DNA of 64,000 bases from Mycolicibacterium sp. MU0053 (GTDB lineage Bacteria; Actinomycetota; Actinomycetes; Mycobacteriales; Mycobacteriaceae), in the NCBI RefSeq assembly GCF_963378095.1, contig NZ_OY726397.1, positions 310,001 through 374,000 of the forward strand, given 5' to 3'. The notes under the pieces are model-generated. The model made no database searches. It was not told where the DNA came from and saw only the letters and a program-made list of their open reading frames with translations. Each line of letters starts with the position of its first letter. Position 1 is the first letter of the stretch. Shown here in pieces: positions 32,374 through 43,365 of this stretch. The position numbers and the translations under genes are program-made.

Positions 32374-32449
32374 GCCGCCCTAGCTCAGTCGGTAGAGCAA
32401 TTCACTCGTAATGAATAGGTCAGGAGTTCGATTCTCCTGGGCGGCTCCA
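32374..32449 (+). tRNA. tRNA-Thr (anticodon CGU)
   Basis: The cloverleaf is complete. Acceptor GCCGCCC pairs with GGGCGGC, the D arm is GCTC...GAGC, the anticodon stem is ATTCA/TGAAT with loop CTCGTAA (anticodon CGT, reading ACG), and the T arm is AGGAG-TTCGATT-CTCCT. A CCA is encoded at 32447-32449. The position after holB matches M. tuberculosis. Confidence 0.97.
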
Positions 32450-32461
32450 CGTGAACGTGCC

Positions 32462-32851
32462 TCAGATCTGATGTTCTCGGCTGAAGGCCTTCAGCGCCGC
32501 GTGCTTGGCGGTGTTGGCCGCCGGGAAGCCGGCGTAGCCGGAGCTGTGGTAGACGACCTCGGCCAGTTCGTCCTCGGTCAGGCCGTTCTGCAGGGCGATC
32601 TGGAAGTGTGACTCCAGCTCCTGCTCGGCGCCCAGCGCGATCAGGATGCCCAGGGTGAGCAGGCTGCGGTCCCGTCGGGACAGTCCCTCGCGGCTCCACA
32701 GTCGACCGAAGATGCCCTCGATGCCGATTTCCATCAACTCGGAGGCGAAGCCGGTGCCGAAGCTGACCTTCTCATTAGGCAGGTTCTCCGGCAGGACGCC
32801 GGGCAGCATTTCGCGGAACACGTTCAGGCCCTCGTCGCGCAAGTTAGTCAT
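32462..32851 (-). CDS. carboxymuconolactone decarboxylase family protein, 129 aa
   Basis: A small all-helical protein of the PcaC/AhpD superfamily. The family segment reads RDRSLLTLGILIALGAEQEL, with HFQIALQNGLTEDELAEVVYH. It contains no CxxC pair, so it is not an AhpD-type peroxidase, and it is nearer to 4-carboxymuconolactone decarboxylases. No protocatechuate genes lie nearby, so the function is open. It ends 12 bases from the convergent tRNA-Thr gene and is the last gene of the long minus-strand run that starts at 42154. Confidence 0.88.
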   Translation of the reverse strand: MTNLRDEGLNVFREMLPGVLPENLPNEKVSFGTGFASELMEIGIEGIFGRLWSREGLSRRDRSLLTLGILIALGAEQELESHFQIALQNGLTEDELAEVVYHSSGYAGFPAANTAKHAALKAFSREHQI

Positions 32852-32872
32852 ACGAACTACTCTGACACAGCC

Positions 32873-34603
32873 TCAGCGCCTGGGCGCGAGGTGGCCCACC
32901 GGCCCCGAGGCCAGGCACACCGACAGCGCGGCGGTCTGCGCCTGCGCCGTGATGGACCCGCCGGCGCCGGATAGCCGCACGTAGACGCGGTTGAGGCCCG
33001 GTCGCACCGGCACCCGCACCTCGGTGCCCTCATCGAGGGTCATGGTCATCGAGCCGTCGCTGTTGGCCAGGTAGTTGATCTCGGCGGTCCATTCCGCGGG
33101 CAACAACGGCCCGTCCAGCGGCATCTGCACCGGCTGGTCGGGCTGGGTGAGATATCCGCAGTGCGGGGTGGGGCCGGGTAGCACCGTTCGCACCCAGGTG
33201 ACGTTCGCGTCGACGACGTGTCCGCCGGCATCCAGCATGCGTAATTCCGTTGTGGAGGAGTCGAATTCGGGTCGGTCCGGCAACAGCGCGAACATGTGGC
33301 TGGCCAGGTTCTCCGGCCAGGCCATCCGCTGCAGAATCAGTGGATCGACCTCCTGATCCAGCAGCGGTGCCGACGACTCCGATTGCGCGACAGCCAGACT
33401 CGCCCGAGCGGTCTGCAGATAGGACTTGGTCGGATTGTCGCGCCAGCTGGTGAGGAAGGTCGCCGTCGAGTACAGGCTGCTGGCGACGAACAGCACCGCC
33501 GCGGCGGCCGTCGCGATGCTGCGCGTCCTGGAGGCGTCCAACCAGGCCGCGCCGGGACGATTCGGCGCGCTCAGTCCGACCGCGGCCAACAGGGCCGCCA
33601 CCACCACCAGATCCGGCAGATAGCGCAGCGTCTGCGCCAGTTCCAGCGCCGTGAACTGTGAGGACCGCATCAGGTAGATCGGGATCTGGCAGGCCACCGC
33701 GTAACCGAGGGCGACCGCCCACACCGGGCCGATCCGTTGTTTACGGATCAGCGAGACCGCCAGCACGACGGCCAGCGCCACCCAGCCCAGCGCCATCACC
33801 GTCGTCGGCGGGACCCCCCAGGGGGAGGCCGGGGCCCACCGCTGCCATTCCCACGGGCCACCCACCAGGCCCGGCACGATGCCGTGCGTGAATGAGCGCC
33901 GCAGCAGATCCCACGTCATGGCCAGATCGGAACTCCACCGCTGCTGGTCGACCACCACCAGGTACAGCCCGACCCAGGCCGCGGTCAACGCCAGGGCGGC
34001 CGCCCACAACCGCAGGCCGCGGCGCCAGACCGTGCGGATCGGCTGGTGCTCGCCCTGGACGTGCGCCAGCAGCACCGCGACGGTGAACGCCACGAACGGG
34101 ATGACGGCGGCCTTCTCGAAGAACAGCAGACCGCCGAGGAACATCGCGGCTCCGGTGACCGCATACCGTTGCCGTCCGGTGCGTACCAACAGGATCGCGT
34201 CCGCGCACACCCAGGCGAGCGCGGCCAGCATCGGCAGGGAGTTCAACCCGGCCGCCCACCAGGCGTAGCCCGGCACGCCCAGCGGCGTGAACAGTGCGAA
34301 GGTCAGCGGGATCAACAGCACCGGCCGCCAACCCAGGATCACCCGCAGCGCCCGCAGCAGCGCCAGCGAGGCCAGTACCTGCAACAGCACCAGCGACAGG
34401 GCCGGTCCGAACCAGTTCAGCGGGGCCAACCGGGTGATCAGGCCCCCCAGTAGGAACCCGCCCGGCATCACGTGGCCGTCGTGGTCGTCGAAGAGGTAGC
34501 CCGGCGACAGCAGGTGCTGGGTGCCGGCGCGTCCCACCAGGATCAGATCGTCCCAATAGAAGTAGCCGCCGAACGCCAGCACCGCCCGGACCGCAAGCGC
34601 CAC
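32873..34603 (-). CDS. polytopic membrane protein, GT-C glycosyltransferase-like (Rv3635 type)
   Basis: A protein of at least 576 residues with about eleven membrane helices in the first 430 and a soluble C-terminal domain of about 170. After the first helix the motif GGYFYWDDLILVGRAG places two aspartates on the outer face, as in GT-C lipid-phosphosugar transferases. The C-terminal domain is beta-rich (TEVRVPVRPGLNRVYVRLSG). The GTG at 34603 would remove part of helix 1, so the true start is probably upstream, overlapping the galE end, where I find only a TTG at 34771. The likely role is sugar transfer to an envelope polymer outside the membrane. Confidence 0.75.
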   Translation of the reverse strand: MALAVRAVLAFGGYFYWDDLILVGRAGTQHLLSPGYLFDDHDGHVMPGGFLLGGLITRLAPLNWFGPALSLVLLQVLASLALLRALRVILGWRPVLLIPLTFALFTPLGVPGYAWWAAGLNSLPMLAALAWVCADAILLVRTGRQRYAVTGAAMFLGGLLFFEKAAVIPFVAFTVAVLLAHVQGEHQPIRTVWRRGLRLWAAALALTAAWVGLYLVVVDQQRWSSDLAMTWDLLRRSFTHGIVPGLVGGPWEWQRWAPASPWGVPPTTVMALGWVALAVVLAVSLIRKQRIGPVWAVALGYAVACQIPIYLMRSSQFTALELAQTLRYLPDLVVVAALLAAVGLSAPNRPGAAWLDASRTRSIATAAAAVLFVASSLYSTATFLTSWRDNPTKSYLQTARASLAVAQSESSAPLLDQEVDPLILQRMAWPENLASHMFALLPDRPEFDSSTTELRMLDAGGHVVDANVTWVRTVLPGPTPHCGYLTQPDQPVQMPLDGPLLPAEWTAEINYLANSDGSMTMTLDEGTEVRVPVRPGLNRVYVRLSGAGGSITAQAQTAALSVCLASGPVGHLAPRR

Positions 34604-34649
34604 CCCGATCAGGGCGACTGCGACCAGGGCGACGCGGGACTGCGCAGCG

Positions 34650-35627
34650 TTAGCCCGGATACGCGTCTCCGGCCTGCCGGCGAGCCTGCCACGCGGAGGC
34701 CACCATGTCGGTGATGGTGTGGCGCATCTGCCAGTCCAGGTCGCGGGCGGCCAACTCCCCGGCGGCGACAATCCGCGCGGGGTCCCCGGGCCGCCGGTCG
34801 GCGACCTCCGGTTCGAAGTCGACGCCGGTGACCGAGCGGATGGCGGTCATGATCTCGCGGACCGACGTCCCGGCCCCGCTGCCGAGGTTGTAGACCGGCT
34901 CGACCGGCAGACCCTCGTCCAGTCGGCGGGCGGCCGCGACGTGGGCCAGCGCCAGATCGGCGACGTGGACGTAGTCGCGCACGCAGGTGCCGTCCGCGGT
35001 CGGATAGTCCGCGCCGTTGATGCGCGGCGTCTGGCCGCGGTGCAACATCTCGAACACCTTGGGGAACAGGTTGAATGGGCTGACGTCGAACAGTTCGCTG
35101 GAGCCGGACCCGACCACGTTGAAGTATCGCAGGCTGGTGTGGCGCAGCCCGGTGGCGGCACCGACGTCGCGCAGCAGCCATTCGCCGATCAGTTTGCTTT
35201 CGCCGTACGGCGACTCCGGCGCGGTGGGGGTGGTCTCGTCGACGAGGTCGGTGTCCGGGGTGCCGTAGGTGGCGGCGCTGGACGAGAAAACGAACTTGTC
35301 GATCCCGGCGGCTGTCACTTCCTCCAGCAGGGTGACCATCGCCGACACGTTCTGGCGGTAGGTGTGCAGCGGCCGGCGCACGGATTCGCCGGCGTACTTG
35401 TATCCGGCGATGTGGATGACCCCGGTCACCCGATGGAATTCGAGTATCAAGCGCACGGTGTCGGCGTCGAGCAGATTCGCCGGCACCAGCGGGACGTCGC
35501 CGGGCAGGAACTGGGCCAGGCCGGTGGACAGATCGTCGATCACGACCACGGCTACGTCGGCCTCCCGTAATGCGCGCACCACATGGGAGCCGATGTAGCC
35601 GGCGCCGCCAGTCACAAGCCAGGTCAT
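34650..35627 (-). CDS. galE: UDP-glucose 4-epimerase-type NAD-dependent epimerase
   Basis: A 325-residue extended short-chain dehydrogenase. The NAD motif is TGGAGYIGSH, the catalytic serine segment is FSSSAATYGTP, and the Tyr-Lys pair is in PYGESKLIGE. RYFNVVGSG and CVRDYVHVADLA are typical of GalE proper. The sequence is unlike the atypical GalE1 (Rv3634c) of M. tuberculosis, and it reads in the opposite relative direction. It supplies UDP-galactose or a similar epimer. It lies between the flippase-like and GT-C-like genes with 25 bases or less of spacing, which suggests it feeds the same envelope product. Confidence 0.93.
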   Translation of the reverse strand: MTWLVTGGAGYIGSHVVRALREADVAVVVIDDLSTGLAQFLPGDVPLVPANLLDADTVRLILEFHRVTGVIHIAGYKYAGESVRRPLHTYRQNVSAMVTLLEEVTAAGIDKFVFSSSAATYGTPDTDLVDETTPTAPESPYGESKLIGEWLLRDVGAATGLRHTSLRYFNVVGSGSSELFDVSPFNLFPKVFEMLHRGQTPRINGADYPTADGTCVRDYVHVADLALAHVAAARRLDEGLPVEPVYNLGSGAGTSVREIMTAIRSVTGVDFEPEVADRRPGDPARIVAAGELAARDLDWQMRHTITDMVASAWQARRQAGDAYPG

Positions 35628-35652
35628 GACCGCCGATGCTACCGATGGGCAC

Positions 35653-36906
35653 TCAGCCCCGGCTGCCCGCCGCCAGCGCGAACAGGTGCACGGCGATGCC
35701 GACCACCGGCCCGCACAGCAGCGCGATGACCGTGCGTGTTTCCAGCGGCAGCGGCAACGTCAGCACCCCGGCGGCGACGACGGTCGCCCCCACCCACCCC
35801 ACCGAGTAGGCGCGATGCAGCGCCGCCGCCACGGTCGCGGCGCCGGTGACGGTCAGCACCGCGATCGCCACGGCGCCCGCGGTCAGCCAGGCGAGCAGCC
35901 CGCCGGTGGTGACGTAGTCGGGTCCGAAGCCGACCCGCAGCAGCCACGGCCCGGCGCCCCACGCGAGCCCGACGCCCACCGCACCGATCACCGTGACGAT
36001 CGCGATGGGCGCCAGCAGGGCCCGGAGCCGGCGTTGCCGCTGGTCGACGAAGTACGCGATCAGGTTGCCCTGCATCGCGGTCAGCGGGACCAACAGCGGC
36101 GCGCGGGTAAGGGTGACCGCCAGGATCACCACGCCGCCGGTGGCGCCGAGGTCACCCGAGGTGGCCTGCAGCAGCACCGGGAAGCCCATGACCAGGATGG
36201 CGCTGGCGCCCGCGGCGGCGATCGCGTGCGAGGCGCCGCGCAGGAAGCTGCCGGTGTCCTGGTGGGCGACCAGGGCCGCGGTGGCCCGGGCCACGGGCGA
36301 GGCCGCGAGCAGCAGCAGCCAAGCCATCGCGCCGCCCACGGTGGCCCACAGGAAGCCGACCAGGCCCCAGCCCACCAGCACGGTGGCCCCGGCGATCAGC
36401 ACCCGGGTCACCGCGTCGGTCACCATCAGGGCGCCGTATTGCGACCAGTGGTTGGCGCCGGCGAGCATGCCCAGCAGGGTGGCGTGCAGGCAGAACCCGG
36501 CCAGTCCGACCGCGAGCAGAATCACGGAGAGCCAACGGGATTCCACGAAGACATGCGAGGACCACAGCGTCGCGGTGGCGACGATCGCCGCCGCCGACAA
36601 CACCCCGACGATGGCGGCCACCCGCAGCGGCCGCGTGATCGGACGGTGCTCGGGCAGCACCGTGCGCGCCATCCGGATCTCGCGGGTGCTCTGCTGCAAC
36701 AACCCGTTGGCCGCGCCGGTCACCAGCCCGAACGCGCCCCAGAACACGGCGAACACCGAGAAGCCGGCCGGGTCCAGATCGCTCGCGGCCAGGTACAGCA
36801 CCGCGTACCCGCACACCGCGGTGACGGCGGTCGCGACACCCACCCGGGCCACCCCACTGCGGGCGATGGGCCCGGCGGGCCCGGTGGGTACCGCGGCGTC
36901 GGTCAC
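35653..36906 (-). CDS. polysaccharide-flippase-like polytopic membrane protein (Rv3630 type)
   Basis: A 417-residue integral membrane protein with about 12 predicted helices, of the MATE/Wzx-like (MOP) appearance: FAVFWGAFGLVTGAANGLLQ near helix 2 and paired six-helix halves. The start is the GTG at 36906, overlapping the aminopeptidase stop by four bases. In M. tuberculosis the homologue sits beside polyprenol-phosphate glycosyltransferases. The likely role is flipping a lipid-linked envelope precursor; the substrate is unknown. Confidence 0.82.
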   Translation of the reverse strand: MTDAAVPTGPAGPIARSGVARVGVATAVTAVCGYAVLYLAASDLDPAGFSVFAVFWGAFGLVTGAANGLLQQSTREIRMARTVLPEHRPITRPLRVAAIVGVLSAAAIVATATLWSSHVFVESRWLSVILLAVGLAGFCLHATLLGMLAGANHWSQYGALMVTDAVTRVLIAGATVLVGWGLVGFLWATVGGAMAWLLLLAASPVARATAALVAHQDTGSFLRGASHAIAAAGASAILVMGFPVLLQATSGDLGATGGVVILAVTLTRAPLLVPLTAMQGNLIAYFVDQRQRRLRALLAPIAIVTVIGAVGVGLAWGAGPWLLRVGFGPDYVTTGGLLAWLTAGAVAIAVLTVTGAATVAAALHRAYSVGWVGATVVAAGVLTLPLPLETRTVIALLCGPVVGIAVHLFALAAGSRG

Positions 36907-38249
36907 AACTCCGGGACCGCGGTCGAGTACAGCCACGCCTGCCACAGCGGACGCAGCGAGACCTCGGCATACTGCGCCGCCAACCCGGTGAAGTCGTCGG
37001 TGACGACCGTGGCGTGCCGGTACCGCGCGGCCCAATCACGAAGCAGTTCAAAGAATTTCTTGTCGCCGAGCGCGGCGCGCAGCGCATGCAGGGTCAGCGC
37101 GCCGCGCTTGTAGACGCGGTCGTCGAACATGTCCTTGGGGCCCGGATCGGCCAACAGTAGATCCTGCGGCGAATTGCGCAACCGATCGTGGTAATGCCGT
37201 GCCCACTGCTCGGTGCTGCGCCCGCCGGCCGCTTCCGACCACAGCCATTCGGCGTAGCAGGCGAAGCCCTCGTGCAGCCAGATGTCGCGCCAGCGCCGCG
37301 CCGTGACGCTGTTGCCGAACCACTGGTGTGCCAATTCGTGGGCGATCAACCGCTCGGAGCTGCCCGTGCCGTCGCAGTGGTTGGCGCCGAATATCGAAAT
37401 CCCCTGCGCCTCCAAGGGAATCTCGAGTTCGTCGTCGGTGACGACAACGGTGTAGCCGCCGGCCAACGGGTAGGGGCCGAACAGCTTCTCGAACAGCTTC
37501 ATCATCTGCGGTTGCTTGGCGAAGTCGTGGTCGAAGTTGCTCTTCAGCCGTTCGGGCAGCGCCGCCTGCATCGGCACGTCGGACTTGGGGAGGTGGTGCA
37601 CCGAGTAGTCACCGATCTGCAGGGTGGCCAGGTACGTCGAGGTCGGCTCGGGCAACTCGTAGGTCCACGTGGTCATGCCGGCGCGGACGCGGCGAGACAG
37701 CAACTCGCCGTTGGCAATCGCGCGGTAGGGGCTGTCGGTGCTGACCTGGATCCGGTAGCTTGCCTTCGAGCTGGGGTGATCGTCGCAGGGGAACCAGGAG
37801 GTCGCCCCGTTGGGCTGGCCGGCCACCAGCACACCGTTGGTGAGTTCCTCGAAACCGACTTCGCCCCAAGGGGTTCGGATGGGCCTGGGATTACCGCCGT
37901 AGCGGACGGCGATGTGCAGGGCCGCACCGGCCGGCAGCACGTCGCCCAGCGTGATGTCGAGCTTGCCCTTGGACCGGCTGAAGCCCCGCGGGCGCCGGCC
38001 GTTGACGGTGACCTTCGAGACGGTCAGGGCGTCGGAGAGGTCGAGGGAGAACGTGCGCAGCGCAGCCAGGGTGGCCGCGGTGATCGTCGCCGATCCGGCC
38101 AGTCGGTTGGCCGCGACCTTGTACTCGAGATCGAGTTCGTAGCGCGATACCCGATAGCCGAAGTTGCCGGAGCCGGGCAGATAGGGATCGATCACCGGCG
38201 GTGTGGCCGGGGCCCGCCGTTTGCCGTTGCTGTTCTTGGCCTTCGTCAT
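36903..38249 (-). CDS. M1-family zinc aminopeptidase, 448 aa
   Basis: A short gluzincin aminopeptidase. The zinc motif is IAHELAHQWFGNSV (about residue 300), with the third ligand in WLHEGFACYAEWLW. The aminopeptidase exopeptidase box is present as LEAQGISIFGANH (usually GxMEN), a deviation typical of this M1 branch. It lacks the C-terminal helical domain of PepN (usual length about 850). No signal peptide is seen. The start is ATG 38249, overlapping the stop of the Pls-like gene (ATGA). Tight coupling to an amino-acid-activating enzyme suggests a role in trimming its product. Confidence 0.9.
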   Translation of the reverse strand: MTKAKNSNGKRRAPATPPVIDPYLPGSGNFGYRVSRYELDLEYKVAANRLAGSATITAATLAALRTFSLDLSDALTVSKVTVNGRRPRGFSRSKGKLDITLGDVLPAGAALHIAVRYGGNPRPIRTPWGEVGFEELTNGVLVAGQPNGATSWFPCDDHPSSKASYRIQVSTDSPYRAIANGELLSRRVRAGMTTWTYELPEPTSTYLATLQIGDYSVHHLPKSDVPMQAALPERLKSNFDHDFAKQPQMMKLFEKLFGPYPLAGGYTVVVTDDELEIPLEAQGISIFGANHCDGTGSSERLIAHELAHQWFGNSVTARRWRDIWLHEGFACYAEWLWSEAAGGRSTEQWARHYHDRLRNSPQDLLLADPGPKDMFDDRVYKRGALTLHALRAALGDKKFFELLRDWAARYRHATVVTDDFTGLAAQYAEVSLRPLWQAWLYSTAVPEL

Positions 38250-41200
38250 GAGCGCCGACCCTTCTTGCGTGGAACCGGCCACGGCGCAATGGGATTGCCC
38301 TGCCACCGGGTCGACGCCGGAACCTCGTCTCCGCGCATCACCAGCGACGCCGGGCCCACGGTGGCGCCGGCGCCCACCCGGGCGGCGGGCAGCGCCACAC
38401 AGTGTGGGCCCAGGGTGGCGCCGTCCTCCAGGACCACGGTGTCCATCCGCATGATGCGGTCGTGGAACAGGTGGGTCTGCACCACGCAACCGCGGTTGAC
38501 GGTGCTGCCGCGTTCCAAGGTCACCAGGTCGGCCTCGGGCAGCCAATAGGTTTCGCACCAGACCCCGCGGCCGATGTCGGCGCCCAGGCCCCGCAGCCAG
38601 ATGTTCATCACCGGTGTGCCGCTGGCCGAGCGCGCGAACCAGGGTGCGGCCACGGTCTCGACGAACGTGTCGGACACCTCGTTGCGCCACACGAACGACG
38701 ACCACAGCGGATGCTCGACGGCCCGGATGCGGCCCACCACAACCCATTTCGCGATCACCGAAACGGTGCCGGCCACCGCGCCGGCGGCCAGCAGCACCAG
38801 GCCAGCGGCCAGGGCCGCCCACCCCCAGCCCAGGTGCAGCACCAGCGCCTGCAGGGCGCCGAGCACCGCCACCCCGATCGCGAACGTCACCATCACCGGG
38901 ATCAGCCGGCAGGTCTCGACGATGCCGCGCATGATCTTCAGCGCCACCGACGGCGCGAAGGTGCGCTGCGCGTCGGCCGCAGCGGCCTGGCGGCGCAGGC
39001 GAACCGGCGGGCTGCCCAACCAGGACGAGCCGCGCTTGGCCTTGCGTGGGGTCGCCGACAGGACCGCAACCAGACCGTCCTCGGGCACCCGACGGCCGGG
39101 CTGCGTGATGCCGGAGTTGCCGAGGAACGCCCGCTTTCCGACGGTCGCCGTGGCCACGTGGATCCAGCCGCCGCCCAGTTCGTAGCTGGCGACCATGGTG
39201 TCGTCGGCCAGGAAGGCGCCGTCCTCGATGACCGTGAACTTCGGCGTGAGCAGGGCCGTGGAAATCTCGGTGCCCTTGCCGACCTTCGCCCCGAGCAACC
39301 GCAGCCACCACGGCGTCAACAGGCTGGCATAGACCGGGAACAGGTAGTTGCGGGCGCCGTCCATCAACCGTTCGGTGGCCCACAGCTGCCACCCGATCCG
39401 GCTGCGCACCGGGTGATAGCCCTCCCGCAGGCCGATCGCCAGCAGTCGCACCAGCACCGCGGTCAGCACCGCGTACACCGCCAGCGCCACCAGGGTGGCG
39501 ACCGGCAACCAGATCAACGCCGGCACCACGGCCTGCGACAGCGAGGCGGTCCCGCGCGTCGCGTAGGCGATCACGGCGAGCCCGGCACCCAGGGCGGCCA
39601 GCGGCAGCGCGCCCAACAGCAGTGACGTCAGCCCATAGGTCAGCACCCAGGCCGGCGCGCGCGGCGGCCGGTGGTCGGGCCACGGGTGGCGGGCCTTACC
39701 GGATTTCACCGCCGGCGAACCCTTCCAGTACTGCTTGTTCTTGACCCTGCCGACCACCCCGGACCCGGCCGCGACATCGGCGTTCTTGCCCACCACCGCT
39801 CCCGGCAGCAGCGTGGTGCGGGCGCCCACGGTGGCATCGTTGCCGATCGAGATGGAACCGACGTGGAAGATGTCGCCGTCGATCCAGTGCCCGGACAGAT
39901 CGACCTCCGGCTCGATGGAACTGCGATGGCCCAGCGTCAGCATCCCCGTCACCGGGGGTGCCGAGTGCAGGTCGACGCCCTTGCCGACCCTGTTACCCAG
40001 CGCGCGGGCGTAGTACACCAGCCACGGTGCGCCGGCCAGATTCTCCGCGCCGCTGGCCTCCGACAACCGTTCGGCCAGCCAGACCCGCAGATGCTCGCCA
40101 CCGCCGCGGCGATAGCTGCCCGGCTGCAGATTCGACAGCAGCATTCGCGCGCACAGCACCGCGACGCCCATCCGGCCCAGCGGCGTGACGAACACCAGGA
40201 CTGCCGCGATCACCCACCACCAACTGGTCGGCGCCAGCCAGGCCGGTGCCAGCGTCGCCGGCAGCAGCGCTGCCGCGACGTTGTTGGCCACGGCCAGCCA
40301 GGTCACCCATTGCGCTGCGGCCAGGGTGGCCAGCGGCAGCGAGAGCAGCACCTGCAGCGCCTGCGCCCCCACCGGCGTCGGCTCCACGCGGCGCGGTTCG
40401 ACCTTGGCGGTCGGGTCCAGCTCGTCGAGGTAGCCGGCCAGCGATCCCAGCCGCGGGTGGTCGTAGAGCTGCGCGACGGTCAGCTGCGGGTAGCGCTCGC
40501 GCAGCGCGACCACGAGCTGGGCCGCGGACAGGGATCCGCCGCCGAGCGCGAAGAAGTCCGCCTCGGGGCCGTCGATCTGCGCGCCGAGCACGTCCCGCCA
40601 CAGGGTGGCCAGCCAGCCCATGGTGCCCTCGAGCGTGGTCTCCTCGGTCGGGTCCGCGCCCGGCGGTGGCCACGGCAGCGCATCGCGGTCGACCTTCCCG
40701 GAGGTACGGGTGGGCAGCTCGTCGACCAGCACCAGCCGCGGGATCAGCGCCGCGGGCAGCGACGCGGCCAGGGCGGCACGGGCCACGTTCACGTCGAAGT
40801 CGGGGTCCGCGCTGGCCAGATAGCCCACCAGCAGCGGGGTTCCGGTGGCCGTCTTGCGCACCGCCGCGGCCGCGCCGGCTACCCCGGGCAGGTTGACCAG
40901 CGCGGTGTCGACCTCGCCCAGCTCGATCCGCCGGCCACCCACCTTGACCTGGTCGTCAGCCCGGCCCTGGAAATACAGTCCGTCCGGTTCCAGCCGAACC
41001 AGGTCACCGCTGCGGTAGGCACGCTGCCAGCGCCCGGCCGGCTCCAGCAGCGGCATCGGCGCGTATTTCTCGGCGTCCTTCTCGGGGTCGAGGTATCGGG
41101 CCAGTCCGACGCCGCCGATCACCAGTTCGCCGGTTTCGCCGTAGCCGACCTGACGCCCCTGGCTGTCCACGACGGCCAGATCCCAGCCGGGCAGCGGCAA

Positions 41201-42154
41201 CCCGATGCTGACCGGGCCGGTGCCGTCGAGTTCGGCCAGGCACGCCACCACGGTGGCCTCGGTGGGGCCGTAGGTGTTCCACACCTCGCGACCCTCGACC
41301 GCCAGGCGTTCGACGAGTTCGGGCGGGCAGGCCTCGCCGCCGAAGATCAGCAGCCGCACCTGTTCGAGCGCCTCGGCCGGCCACAGCGCCGCCAGCGTGG
41401 GCACGGTGGAGACCACCGAGATGTCCCGGGACACCAACCACGGACCCAGGTCCATCCCGCTGCGCACCAGCGATCTCGGCGCGGGGACCAGGCACGCGCC
41501 GTGCCGCCAGGCCAGCCACATTTCTTCACAGGACGCGTCGAAGGCCACCGACAACCCGGCCAGCACCCGGTCATCGGGTCCAATCGGATTGTCCTGCAAG
41601 AACATCTGCGCTTCGGCGTCGACGAACGCGGCGGCGTTGCGATGCGTGACGGCCACGCCCTTGGGGGTTCCGGTCGAGCCCGAGGTGAAGATGATCCACG
41701 CGTCGTCGCGGCCCAGTGGTGCGCCGGCTCGCCAGCCCCGCGAGGATCCGGGCCCGCGCACCAGGCCCTCGCCGGTGATGATGGCAACCACCTGCGCCTC
41801 GCCGAAGACGAGCTCGGCGCGCTCGTCGGGATCGTCGGCGTCCACCGGCACATAGGCCGCGCCGGTGGCCAGCGTCGCCAGGATCGATACGTAGAGCGCG
41901 TAGCTGCCGGACGGCATCCGGATCCCGATGCGGTCCCCGCGGCCGATGCCGCGGGCCGCGAGCCAGGTCACGCTGTCCTCGATGTCGGCGATCAGCTCGC
42001 TGTAGGTGAGCTGAACCGTGCCGTCGTCGATGGCTGCGGCGTCGGGGTAGCGCGCCGCGGTGTCATAGAGAATGTCGATCAGCGTGCGGGGAGCGGGTGC
42101 GTGCTCGGCTAGTAGGTATTGAGCGGGAATCTCGTGGTTCGGTTCCGCTGTCAC
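38246..42154 (-). CDS. Pls/PosA-like membrane NRPS: adenylation, carrier and beta-helix domains
   Basis: A 1302-residue fusion. Adenylation domain: TSGSTGTPKG (about 160), FDASCEEMWLAW, NTYGPTEATV, YRSGDLV, KVGGRRIELGEVD and a C-terminal catalytic Lys in SGKVDRDAL. A carrier domain follows, with phosphopantetheine serine in DFFALGGGSLSAAQ (about 540). The last 700 residues hold several membrane helices and three groups of hexapeptide beta-helix repeats near 740-800, 960-990 and 1200-1290. This is the 'NRPS terminal domain of unknown function' layout, shared with epsilon-poly-lysine synthetase (Pls), where the membrane part polymerises the activated amino acid. No condensation or thioesterase domain is present. 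The product here is unknown. It heads a six-gene operon. Confidence 0.93.
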   Translation of the reverse strand: MTAEPNHEIPAQYLLAEHAPAPRTLIDILYDTAARYPDAAAIDDGTVQLTYSELIADIEDSVTWLAARGIGRGDRIGIRMPSGSYALYVSILATLATGAAYVPVDADDPDERAELVFGEAQVVAIITGEGLVRGPGSSRGWRAGAPLGRDDAWIIFTSGSTGTPKGVAVTHRNAAAFVDAEAQMFLQDNPIGPDDRVLAGLSVAFDASCEEMWLAWRHGACLVPAPRSLVRSGMDLGPWLVSRDISVVSTVPTLAALWPAEALEQVRLLIFGGEACPPELVERLAVEGREVWNTYGPTEATVVACLAELDGTGPVSIGLPLPGWDLAVVDSQGRQVGYGETGELVIGGVGLARYLDPEKDAEKYAPMPLLEPAGRWQRAYRSGDLVRLEPDGLYFQGRADDQVKVGGRRIELGEVDTALVNLPGVAGAAAAVRKTATGTPLLVGYLASADPDFDVNVARAALAASLPAALIPRLVLVDELPTRTSGKVDRDALPWPPPGADPTEETTLEGTMGWLATLWRDVLGAQIDGPEADFFALGGGSLSAAQLVVALRERYPQLTVAQLYDHPRLGSLAGYLDELDPTAKVEPRRVEPTPVGAQALQVLLSLPLATLAAAQWVTWLAVANNVAAALLPATLAPAWLAPTSWWWVIAAVLVFVTPLGRMGVAVLCARMLLSNLQPGSYRRGGGEHLRVWLAERLSEASGAENLAGAPWLVYYARALGNRVGKGVDLHSAPPVTGMLTLGHRSSIEPEVDLSGHWIDGDIFHVGSISIGNDATVGARTTLLPGAVVGKNADVAAGSGVVGRVKNKQYWKGSPAVKSGKARHPWPDHRPPRAPAWVLTYGLTSLLLGALPLAALGAGLAVIAYATRGTASLSQAVVPALIWLPVATLVALAVYAVLTAVLVRLLAIGLREGYHPVRSRIGWQLWATERLMDGARNYLFPVYASLLTPWWLRLLGAKVGKGTEISTALLTPKFTVIEDGAFLADDTMVASYELGGGWIHVATATVGKRAFLGNSGITQPGRRVPEDGLVAVLSATPRKAKRGSSWLGSPPVRLRRQAAAADAQRTFAPSVALKIMRGIVETCRLIPVMVTFAIGVAVLGALQALVLHLGWGWAALAAGLVLLAAGAVAGTVSVIAKWVVVGRIRAVEHPLWSSFVWRNEVSDTFVETVAAPWFARSASGTPVMNIWLRGLGADIGRGVWCETYWLPEADLVTLERGSTVNRGCVVQTHLFHDRIMRMDTVVLEDGATLGPHCVALPAARVGAGATVGPASLVMRGDEVPASTRWQGNPIAPWPVPRKKGRRS

Positions 42155-42257: not shown

Positions 42258-42364
42258 CAGAGGGGAGTACTCCTTCGCTGCGGAGTCGTCATCACGTCGA
42301 CCGTCATCGGACGACCGGCGCCGTGGATCGCTCCGAGCTTGCCGAGCGGTGGAAGAGACCTCTG
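42258..42364 (+). promoter_or_regulatory. yybP-ykoY manganese riboswitch
   Basis: P1 pairs CAGAGG (42258-42263) with CCTCTG (42359-42364). Inside it are the two signature strings of the class: GGGGAGTA (42262-42269) after the first strand and AGACC (42356-42360) before the second, which dock to form the Mn2+ pocket. A variable GC-rich arm fills the middle. It ends 27 bases before the TTG start of the TerC-family gene and should switch its expression with manganese. Confidence 0.85.
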
Positions 42365-42390
42365 GTGCTTTGACGACCGGAGGTCCTGCT

Positions 42391-43365
42391 TTGAACGTCA
42401 CCCAGCTCGAATGGATCGTCACCCTCGGGGTGACGATCGCCATCCTGCTCTTCGACGTCGTCTACATCGCCCGCAAACCCCACGAGCCGACGATGCGGGA
42501 ATGCGGCATCGCCCTGACGGTCTACGTCGGCCTGGCGATCGCCTTCGGCCTGTGGACCTGGAACTTCCACGGCGAGCAGTACGGGCTCGAATTCTTCGCC
42601 GGCTGGCTCACCGAGTACAGCCTGTCGATCGACAACCTGTTCATCTTCATCATCATCATGGCCAGCTTCAAGGTGCCGAGGAAGTTTCAGCAGCAGGCAC
42701 TGATGGTCGGCATCATCTTGGCGTTGATCTTCCGCGGCATCTTCATCGCGCTCGGTGCCGTCGCGATCGAGCGGTTCTCCTGGATTTTCTACGCCTTCGG
42801 GGCGTTCCTGGTCTACACCGCGGTCAAGCTGGTGCGCGACACCAGCCACGACGACGACGGTGAGAACCGGATCGTCAAGTTCGCCCGCTCGCATCTGAAC
42901 TTCACCGACAAGTGGGACGGGCTGAAGCTCTGGATGAAGGACGGCACCGGCAAGCGGCTGATGACGCCGATGTTCCTGGTGATCGTCGCGCTGGGCACCA
43001 CCGACCTGATGTTCGCGCTGGATTCGATTCCGGCGATCTACGGCCTGACCCGCGAGCCCTACATCGTGTTCACCGCCAACGTCTTTGCGCTGATGGGCCT
43101 TCGGCAGCTGTACTTCCTGCTCGGTGACATGCTCAACCGGCTGGTGTACCTGTCGCAGGGGTTGGCGTTCATCCTGTTGTTCATCGGCGTGAAGCTGATC
43201 CTGCACGCCCTGCACGAGAACGAGTTGCCGTTCATCAACGGTGGCGAGAACCTGCCGGTCCCGGAGATCCCGACGCTGTGGAGCCTCGGGGTGATCATCC
43301 TGACGCTGTTCATCACGATGATCGCCAGCCTGATCCGGGCCAGGGTGGTGGCGCGGGAGCGCTGA
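42391..43365 (+). CDS. TerC/Alx-family membrane protein, probable manganese exporter
   Basis: A 324-residue protein with about nine membrane helices. The family aspartate motifs are SLSIDNLFIFIIIM and TTDLMFALDSIPAIYG. The start is the TTG at 42391, preceded by CCGGAGG (42378-42383) seven bases away. An in-frame codon at 42349 would lie inside the riboswitch and is rejected. TerC proteins under yybP-ykoY control (Alx, YkoY, YceF) export Mn2+ or load it into secreted enzymes; the riboswitch makes that the best reading here rather than tellurite resistance. Confidence 0.93.
   Translation: MNVTQLEWIVTLGVTIAILLFDVVYIARKPHEPTMRECGIALTVYVGLAIAFGLWTWNFHGEQYGLEFFAGWLTEYSLSIDNLFIFIIIMASFKVPRKFQQQALMVGIILALIFRGIFIALGAVAIERFSWIFYAFGAFLVYTAVKLVRDTSHDDDGENRIVKFARSHLNFTDKWDGLKLWMKDGTGKRLMTPMFLVIVALGTTDLMFALDSIPAIYGLTREPYIVFTANVFALMGLRQLYFLLGDMLNRLVYLSQGLAFILLFIGVKLILHALHENELPFINGGENLPVPEIPTLWSLGVIILTLFITMIASLIRARVVARER

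Follow-up and report, generated by a model that had tools for sequence, protein, structure and literature searches.

The present analysis concerns a cluster of six minus-strand genes in a 64,000-nucleotide stretch of Mycolicibacterium sp. MU0053 (hereafter the window; positions 310001-374000 of a 5.45-Mb genome in one contig), and we consider it likely that this cluster comprises two adjoining modules, namely a conserved epsilon-poly-lysine synthetase/hydrolase pair positioned upstream of an envelope-glycan locus. This interpretation is supported by: 1) the Pls/PosA family membership and lysine-type pocket of the first gene product; 2) the start/stop overlap between pls and the gene of an M1 metallopeptidase; 3) the co-inheritance of Pls and M1; 4) the presence of the flippase-type and glycosyltransferase (GT) genes in genomes without Pls; 5) the mutual exclusivity of two sugar cassettes in the genomes tested. 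In the mechanism we propose, Pls would activate L-lysine and load its own carrier domain, the membrane domain of Pls would polymerise lysine into epsilon-poly-L-lysine, which would exit through the membrane, and the coupled M1 enzyme, as the positional counterpart of PldII, would hydrolyse the polymer, whether to turn it over, to trim it or to protect the cell itself. The neighbouring envelope-glycan locus would include the flippase-type and GT-C-like proteins, with its sugar coming from a PpgS/DUF2304/epimerase cassette or, in the window, from a GalE cassette. Among these steps, we infer poly-lysine production as well as the substrates of the peptidase, the flippase and the GT. The original prediction of six open reading frames (ORFs) on the minus strand was borne out in coordinates and junctions by an ORF check, with the genes of the two modules as follows:

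38246..42154, minus strand: pls, Pls/PosA-family synthetase, 1302 amino acids (aa), GTG start, with TIGR02353, AMP-binding, PP-binding and Hexapep matches.
40655..42097, minus strand: adenylation (A) domain of pls, lysine-type pocket D206 A207 E210 S249 I270 G272 T294 V302 V303 K487, from the 7wew alignment and code listing.
38288..40360, minus strand: C-terminal polymerisation domain of pls, membrane helices and left-handed beta-helix repeats, from TIGR02353 over residues 599-1289 and hydrophobic segments.
36903..38249, minus strand: M1 metallopeptidase (448 aa) that resembles PldII in position and coupling; PF01433/PF17900, HEXXH-18-E intact.
35653..36906, minus strand: membrane protein of the MOP superfamily (417 aa) and probable Wzx-like flippase, from a predicted model (predicted local distance difference test, pLDDT, 87) and PDB comparison.
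34650..35627, minus strand: GalE-type UDP-sugar 4-epimerase, 325 aa; TIGR01179 at 319.6 bits vs. a cut-off of 262.3.
32873..~34603 (start codon uncertain), minus strand: putative membrane glycosyltransferase of GT-C type, ending in a beta domain; model pLDDT 75, PDB matches with template-modelling (TM) scores <0.4.

The assignment of Pls is based on a TIGR02353 (Pls/PosA) score of 744.8 bits, the cut-off being 423.1, over residues 599-1289. Its domain order runs from the A domain (about residues 20-500) through a carrier (514-576, with Ser541 as the carrier serine) to the membrane/beta-helix polymerisation domain (599-1289), with PF00501 and PF00550 matching the first two and hexapeptide repeats detected as well. 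The A-domain structure of Streptomyces albulus Pls (7wew) scored 633 bits over window residues 4-500, while the next chain reached 373, over two modules. Reading from the 7wew alignment by eye, we found the pocket of the window's Pls, DAESIGTVVK, to match the S. albulus epsilon-poly-L-lysine synthetase at all ten positions, which were placed via conserved motifs following the usual position scheme. In an alignment of 115 partly redundant rows (some genomes twice, window included), 110 carried this code, four were cut short and one (G183) differed. Pls domains over the cut-off were found in 219 of the 297 genomes of our genus survey and in 42 of 197 surveyed class-wide; class-wide loci were built for the 30 best-scoring places, 27 of which were new, and the lysine code was present in all 24 of the 27 that have a full A-domain code, the other three being relatives that lack this A domain, at 23-24% identity. 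Published work ties Ala at pocket position 2 to lysine enzymes, describes Asp/Glu as conserved group-wide and reports that PosA is inactive when mutated at the Asp or Glu found in positions 1 and 3 (PMC10522769). Given the equality with the S. albulus code and this link of Ala at position 2, L-lysine is the predicted substrate of the window's Pls; the pocket residues, to which the original prediction had pointed for A-domain specificity, spell a lysine-type code and lend support to its suggestion of a Pls-type enzyme that activates and polymerises an amino acid.

A product other than true epsilon-poly-L-lysine, whether a short oligomer of lysine or some other diamino-acid compound, seems unlikely to us. 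Such a product would be in keeping with the attribution of chain length to Pls itself (PMC8506220, PMC9223678), with the roughly 60% identity, over the whole aligned stretch, of the window's Pls to lysine-type copies of Streptomyces-sized genomes, and with related pockets serving ornithine and beta-lysine (PMC10522769), but it is at odds with the full ten-position match to the S. albulus lysine enzyme, and the ornithine and beta-lysine codes printed in the same paper differ from that of the window. Loci L134, L141 and L142, from three genomes of one genus (6 to 9 Mb), encode proteins that exceed the Pls/PosA cut-off and are 23-24% identical to the Pls of the window, but the stretches fetched for them contain no A domain of lysine type. 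The Pls match of G045 fell into three pieces (contig 1, ~6127057-6130902), the copy being apparently frame-disrupted.

The M1 protein of the window shares an intact HEXXH-18-E zinc motif with all other aligned M1 proteins (19 of 19), and PldII itself is an M1 enzyme. No hydrophobic segment scoring at least 1.6 was detected in this protein nor in 17 of 18 aligned relatives (L056 has one, at 1.89), which suggests a cytoplasmic location. In the named loci, i.e. the best 80 of at least 582 confirmed stretches, a sample leaning to close relatives (top Pls loci from Mycolicibacterium and Mycobacterium, 80-82% identical to the window's Pls), M1 lies downstream of Pls in 79, with the contig of the 80th stopping inside Pls. 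In 69 of these 79 loci, M1 has a possible start codon that overlaps the end of pls; the overlap measures four bases in 54 of them and one base in 15. As for the remaining 10, pls and M1 are close in five and separated by ~570 to 2,100 bases in the other five, all from Tsukamurella or Williamsia (L065, L068, L070, L075 and L082), where an insert intervenes; such a gene-sized gap is absent in the other 74. M1 also adjoins Pls in 22 of the 24 class-wide loci with an A-domain code, the two others being L146, whose M1 might be past the fetched flank, and L157, which is distant (36% identity). This arrangement is far beyond chance and agrees with the earlier claim that Pls is tightly joined to a peptidase. 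In the window itself, pls and M1 overlap by four bases (ATGA), as do M1 and the flippase-like gene (GTGA), and translational coupling of M1 to pls is predicted from the former overlap. In S. albulus, pldII is reported to be translationally coupled to pls, and its repression altered chain length (PMC9223678); inactivation of both pld and pldII left chain length unaltered, according to a review and the introduction of the same paper.

To assess co-inheritance, we relied on 40 Mycobacterium genomes hand-picked from the 297, mostly complete and with as well as without a Pls match, where presence required a full-length match for Pls (65-100%) and at least 70% identity for M1. Pls was found in 21 of these genomes and not in 19; M1 accompanied it in 20 of the 21 and occurred in none of the 19 (19 of 20 vs. 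0 of 19 with the window's genome excluded). Could the M1 enzyme be a housekeeping aminopeptidase that merely neighbours pls? M1 enzymes are common, and a larger relative (open frame >850 aa, 27-32% identity) is present in all 40 genomes, but the pls-linked form is missing from every Pls-negative genome, is gone where Pls decayed (G183) and overlaps the pls stop in the great majority of loci (69 of 79), rendering this explanation highly improbable.

The sole exception, G183, carries Pls at 65% with an open frame and no M1, its pocket reading DAASLGTVVV and its A3, A5, A8 and A10 motifs being broken; the flippase gene lies directly downstream of this Pls relative (L113, 7251-11156). Compared with the 114 other rows, the G183 protein is changed at 37 of 167 invariant A-domain positions and 41 of 176 invariant membrane-domain positions (keeping 130 and 135). 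Pairwise ratios of nonsynonymous to synonymous substitution rates (dN/dS) against the window were 0.35 for the A domain and 0.52 for the membrane domain, vs. 0.12-0.21 and 0.21-0.29 between the window and five other loci. In this one genome, the sequence thus looks like that of a Pls that began to decay once its function was gone, M1 having disappeared as well. We rejected as unproven a functional, adenylation-dead Pls in G183, since the changed invariant positions and raised dN/dS point to decay despite the open frame. Two 3.3-Mb genomes, G115 and G075, hold Pls-like fragments with stops only, and G115 has M1 fragments as well. Recent gain of the pair as an antibiotic cluster is not favoured, because Pls fragments persist in these two genomes and because several loci of Nocardia and Rhodococcus, like the window, have the pair close to an S13 peptidase gene on the upstream side and/or to holB on the downstream side.

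Neither the flippase-like nor the GT-C-like protein matched any Pfam family above the default threshold, and relaxed E-values yielded nothing useful. The model of the former has a MOP-superfamily fold, the nearest structure by TM-score being the lipid III flippase WzxE (9g9p, 0.78/0.79); by E-value, the MATE drug exporter 6fhz came first, with MATE exporters making up much of the list. We surmise from this model that the 417-aa protein is probably a Wzx-like flippase. For the other model, the top PDB matches were EmbC (first), oligosaccharyltransferase subunits and ArnT, and the GT-C-like label given earlier is weakly backed, since GT-C enzymes rank top but with TM-scores below 0.4.

Both genes have a distribution of their own. 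The flippase gene was matched in all 40 genomes (disrupted in G115, split in two in G247 and in G175), as was the GT gene at >=64% identity, so that every one of the 19 Pls-negative genomes matches both, with the flippase gene disrupted in one of the 19 and split in another. Co-occurrence of the first three genes, which the original prediction had put forward as a check, therefore holds for Pls with M1 but not for the flippase, which also occurs without Pls. Among the 20 genomes with Pls and M1, the flippase gene directly follows M1 in 13, Pls is located no more than 1.4 kb past the GT gene in four, and Pls lies >150 kb from flippase/GT in three (G026, G031, G161). In the named loci, the flippase gene adjoins M1 in 30 and is apart in two, with 48 lacking a usable flippase match in the stretch; no flippase or GT match was found in the fetched flanks of L047, L049, L053, L054, L055 and L057. 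By heuristic gene calls, the gene after M1 is on the opposite strand in one locus each of Rhodococcus, Nocardia and Kribbella, and two Tsukamurella loci have more same-strand frames after M1. An empty site was sought in six Pls-negative loci: in G060 (L126), a TerC gene adjoins the flippase gene with no Pls or M1 match in between, and L127-L131 gave no TerC match in the fetched stretch. Because flippase and GT persist without Pls, because the position of the pair varies and because the G060 site is empty, the Pls-M1 pair is an insert into, or a loss from, a standing locus, with co-expression possibly useful but not obligatory.

The sugar genes of this standing locus also vary. Relatives have genes for a PpgS-like family-2 glycosyltransferase, a DUF2304 protein and an epimerase between flippase and GT, which, judging from order, family and published descriptions, probably correspond to Rv3631 (PpgS), Rv3632 and Rv3634c, whereas in the window this stretch is occupied by GalE, starting 25 bases past the flippase-like gene. 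No PpgS orthologue was found in the window's genome, the best match having 29% identity. When 20 of the 40 genomes were searched for both, PpgS (66-90%) was present in 11 and GalE (>=75%) in the remaining nine, among them the genome of the window, and no genome had both; the named loci comprise 23 with PpgS, seven with GalE and none with both, the rest having neither and many being cut short. Locus L087 is an exception to this two-cassette picture, with epimerase and GT genes yet no match to PpgS or the window-type GalE between flippase and GT. Five Mycolicibacterium-type loci (L034, L035, L041, L077, L099) carry an amidohydrolase gene in the opposite direction in the flippase-to-GT stretch, and we speculate that it might be a candidate for a deacetylation step. 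PpgS makes polyprenyl-phosphate-GalNAc for arabinogalactan, the M. tuberculosis PpgS/DUF2304/epimerase counterparts are reported to serve arabinogalactan galactosamine, and the flipping and deacetylation of the PpgS product were called unidentified (PMC9671496); ppgS is reported to be absent from M. smegmatis (PMC3485146). The 417-aa flippase-type protein is a candidate for the missing flippase of this galactosamine donor, and not more than a candidate because its model is nearest to WzxE by TM-score while a MATE exporter leads by E-value.

That all six genes act in one pathway, as was originally claimed, can be pictured as Pls-made lysine or poly-lysine being joined to a lipid-linked sugar, exported by the flippase and transferred to the wall by the GT. 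We have dropped this as the leading view since both the flippase and the GT gene are retained where Pls is missing, as described for all 19 Pls-negative genomes; besides, the pair is elsewhere in other mycobacteria (G026, G031 and G161), the six loci listed above show no match to either gene in their fetched flanks, GalE is a replaceable cassette, and the next gene after M1 is reversed in the Rhodococcus, Nocardia and Kribbella loci, though the two Tsukamurella loci differ. Some observations nevertheless weigh against our reading, and the first two of them, along with the likewise cationic nature of the galactosamine substituent (PMC7502851), favour the single pathway or at least some link between the modules: 1) M1 and the flippase gene overlap by four bases in 27 of 32 scorable loci, with three more being close; 2) the Pls-M1-flippase order recurs outside mycobacteria in L075 (Williamsia), L081 (Speluncibacter) and L106 (Dietzia) at 40-50% flippase identity, where L075 has its insert between Pls and M1 and a second Williamsia locus is without a flippase match; 3) the window's M1 has no evident signal or membrane segment, whereas PldII is placed outside the membrane (PMC9223678); 4) neither a poly-lysine product nor a paper on a poly-lysine synthetase of a mycobacterium turned up in the passages surveyed from open-licence papers, which is weak evidence of absence. 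The conserved M1-flippase junction and the recurring order hint that the modules may be co-expressed for a reason. On balance, we hold the single pathway to be quite unlikely and retain the view of a synthetase/hydrolase pair beside a glycan locus.

The remaining member of the cluster and its boundaries are:

32462..32851, minus strand: carboxymuconolactone-decarboxylase-family (CMD) protein, 129 aa, PF02627, at most tentatively linked to the other genes.
42349..43365, plus strand: TerC-family gene (PF03741), divergent from pls, upstream cluster boundary.
32374..32449, plus strand: tRNA-Thr(CGT), downstream boundary on the opposite strand.

Upstream, the TerC-family gene is accompanied by a gene for an S13 peptidase that contains a domain of the Rv3627c type, and downstream of the cluster are the tRNA-Thr, holB and an adenylate cyclase gene. 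Besides Pls, the window's genome has several very large ordinary nonribosomal peptide synthetase (NRPS) frames (2602 to 8168 aa) at ~459000-471000, 2.12 Mb and 5.08 Mb.

The Pls-M1 pair itself is of an already known kind. S. albulus pls-pldII shares with it the Pls domain order, the ten pocket residues and a peptidase gene directly after pls, reported as translationally coupled (PMC9223678); comparing PldII by description, the window differs in its mycobacterial host, in the flippase gene and glycan locus that follow the pair, and in an M1 without an export segment. Nocardia Pls (nfa3790 and relatives), 55% identical to S. albulus Pls, is likewise a Pls homologue predicted for poly-lysine (PMC4035055), and an epsilon-poly-lysine-like cluster has been noted in a Rhodococcus (PMC12915292). 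With this Nocardia prediction and the pls-pldII coupling in print, the Pls/peptidase part is not undescribed, contrary to what was first proposed. Clusters for non-alpha poly-amino acids (NAPAA) are a named class with one case beside a glycosyltransferase, but that case sits in a hybrid polyketide synthase-NRPS-lipid cluster, and the mycobacterial clusters named in the same source are of another kind (PMC13291983). PosA, the delta-poly-L-ornithine synthetase of Acinetobacter baumannii, belongs to the same family with the same architecture, and homologues are widespread, but its pocket is DMEHNGTVSK vs. DAESIGTVVK in the window (PMC10522769). The arabinogalactan galactosamine locus (PpgS Rv3631, Rv3632, epimerase Rv3634c) resembles the window's relatives, which have GT2/DUF2304/epimerase genes between the same flippase and GT genes, and differs from the window, which has GalE in their place. 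What is new is the breadth of the pair in Mycobacterium, the tight co-loss of Pls and M1, the placement of the pair in a glycan locus, the cassette swap and the candidate flippase.

As a long shot, we speculate that epsilon-poly-L-lysine is, for many mycobacteria, a polycation which they produce for their envelope and not an antibiotic, that the pair is kept beside a locus for galactosamine or another sugar because both would control envelope charge, and that the flippase between them might be the missing flippase of polyprenyl-phosphate-linked galactosamine or of its GalE-type replacement sugar. At this locus, a cassette for galactosamine and one with GalE have been exchanged naturally, and the locus supplies a testable candidate for the galactosamine-donor flippase, a step that PMC9671496 describes as awaiting assignment. 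Should mycobacteria indeed make poly-lysine, models of their envelope, their biofilms and their resistance to cationic peptides would need to accommodate a cationic polymer.
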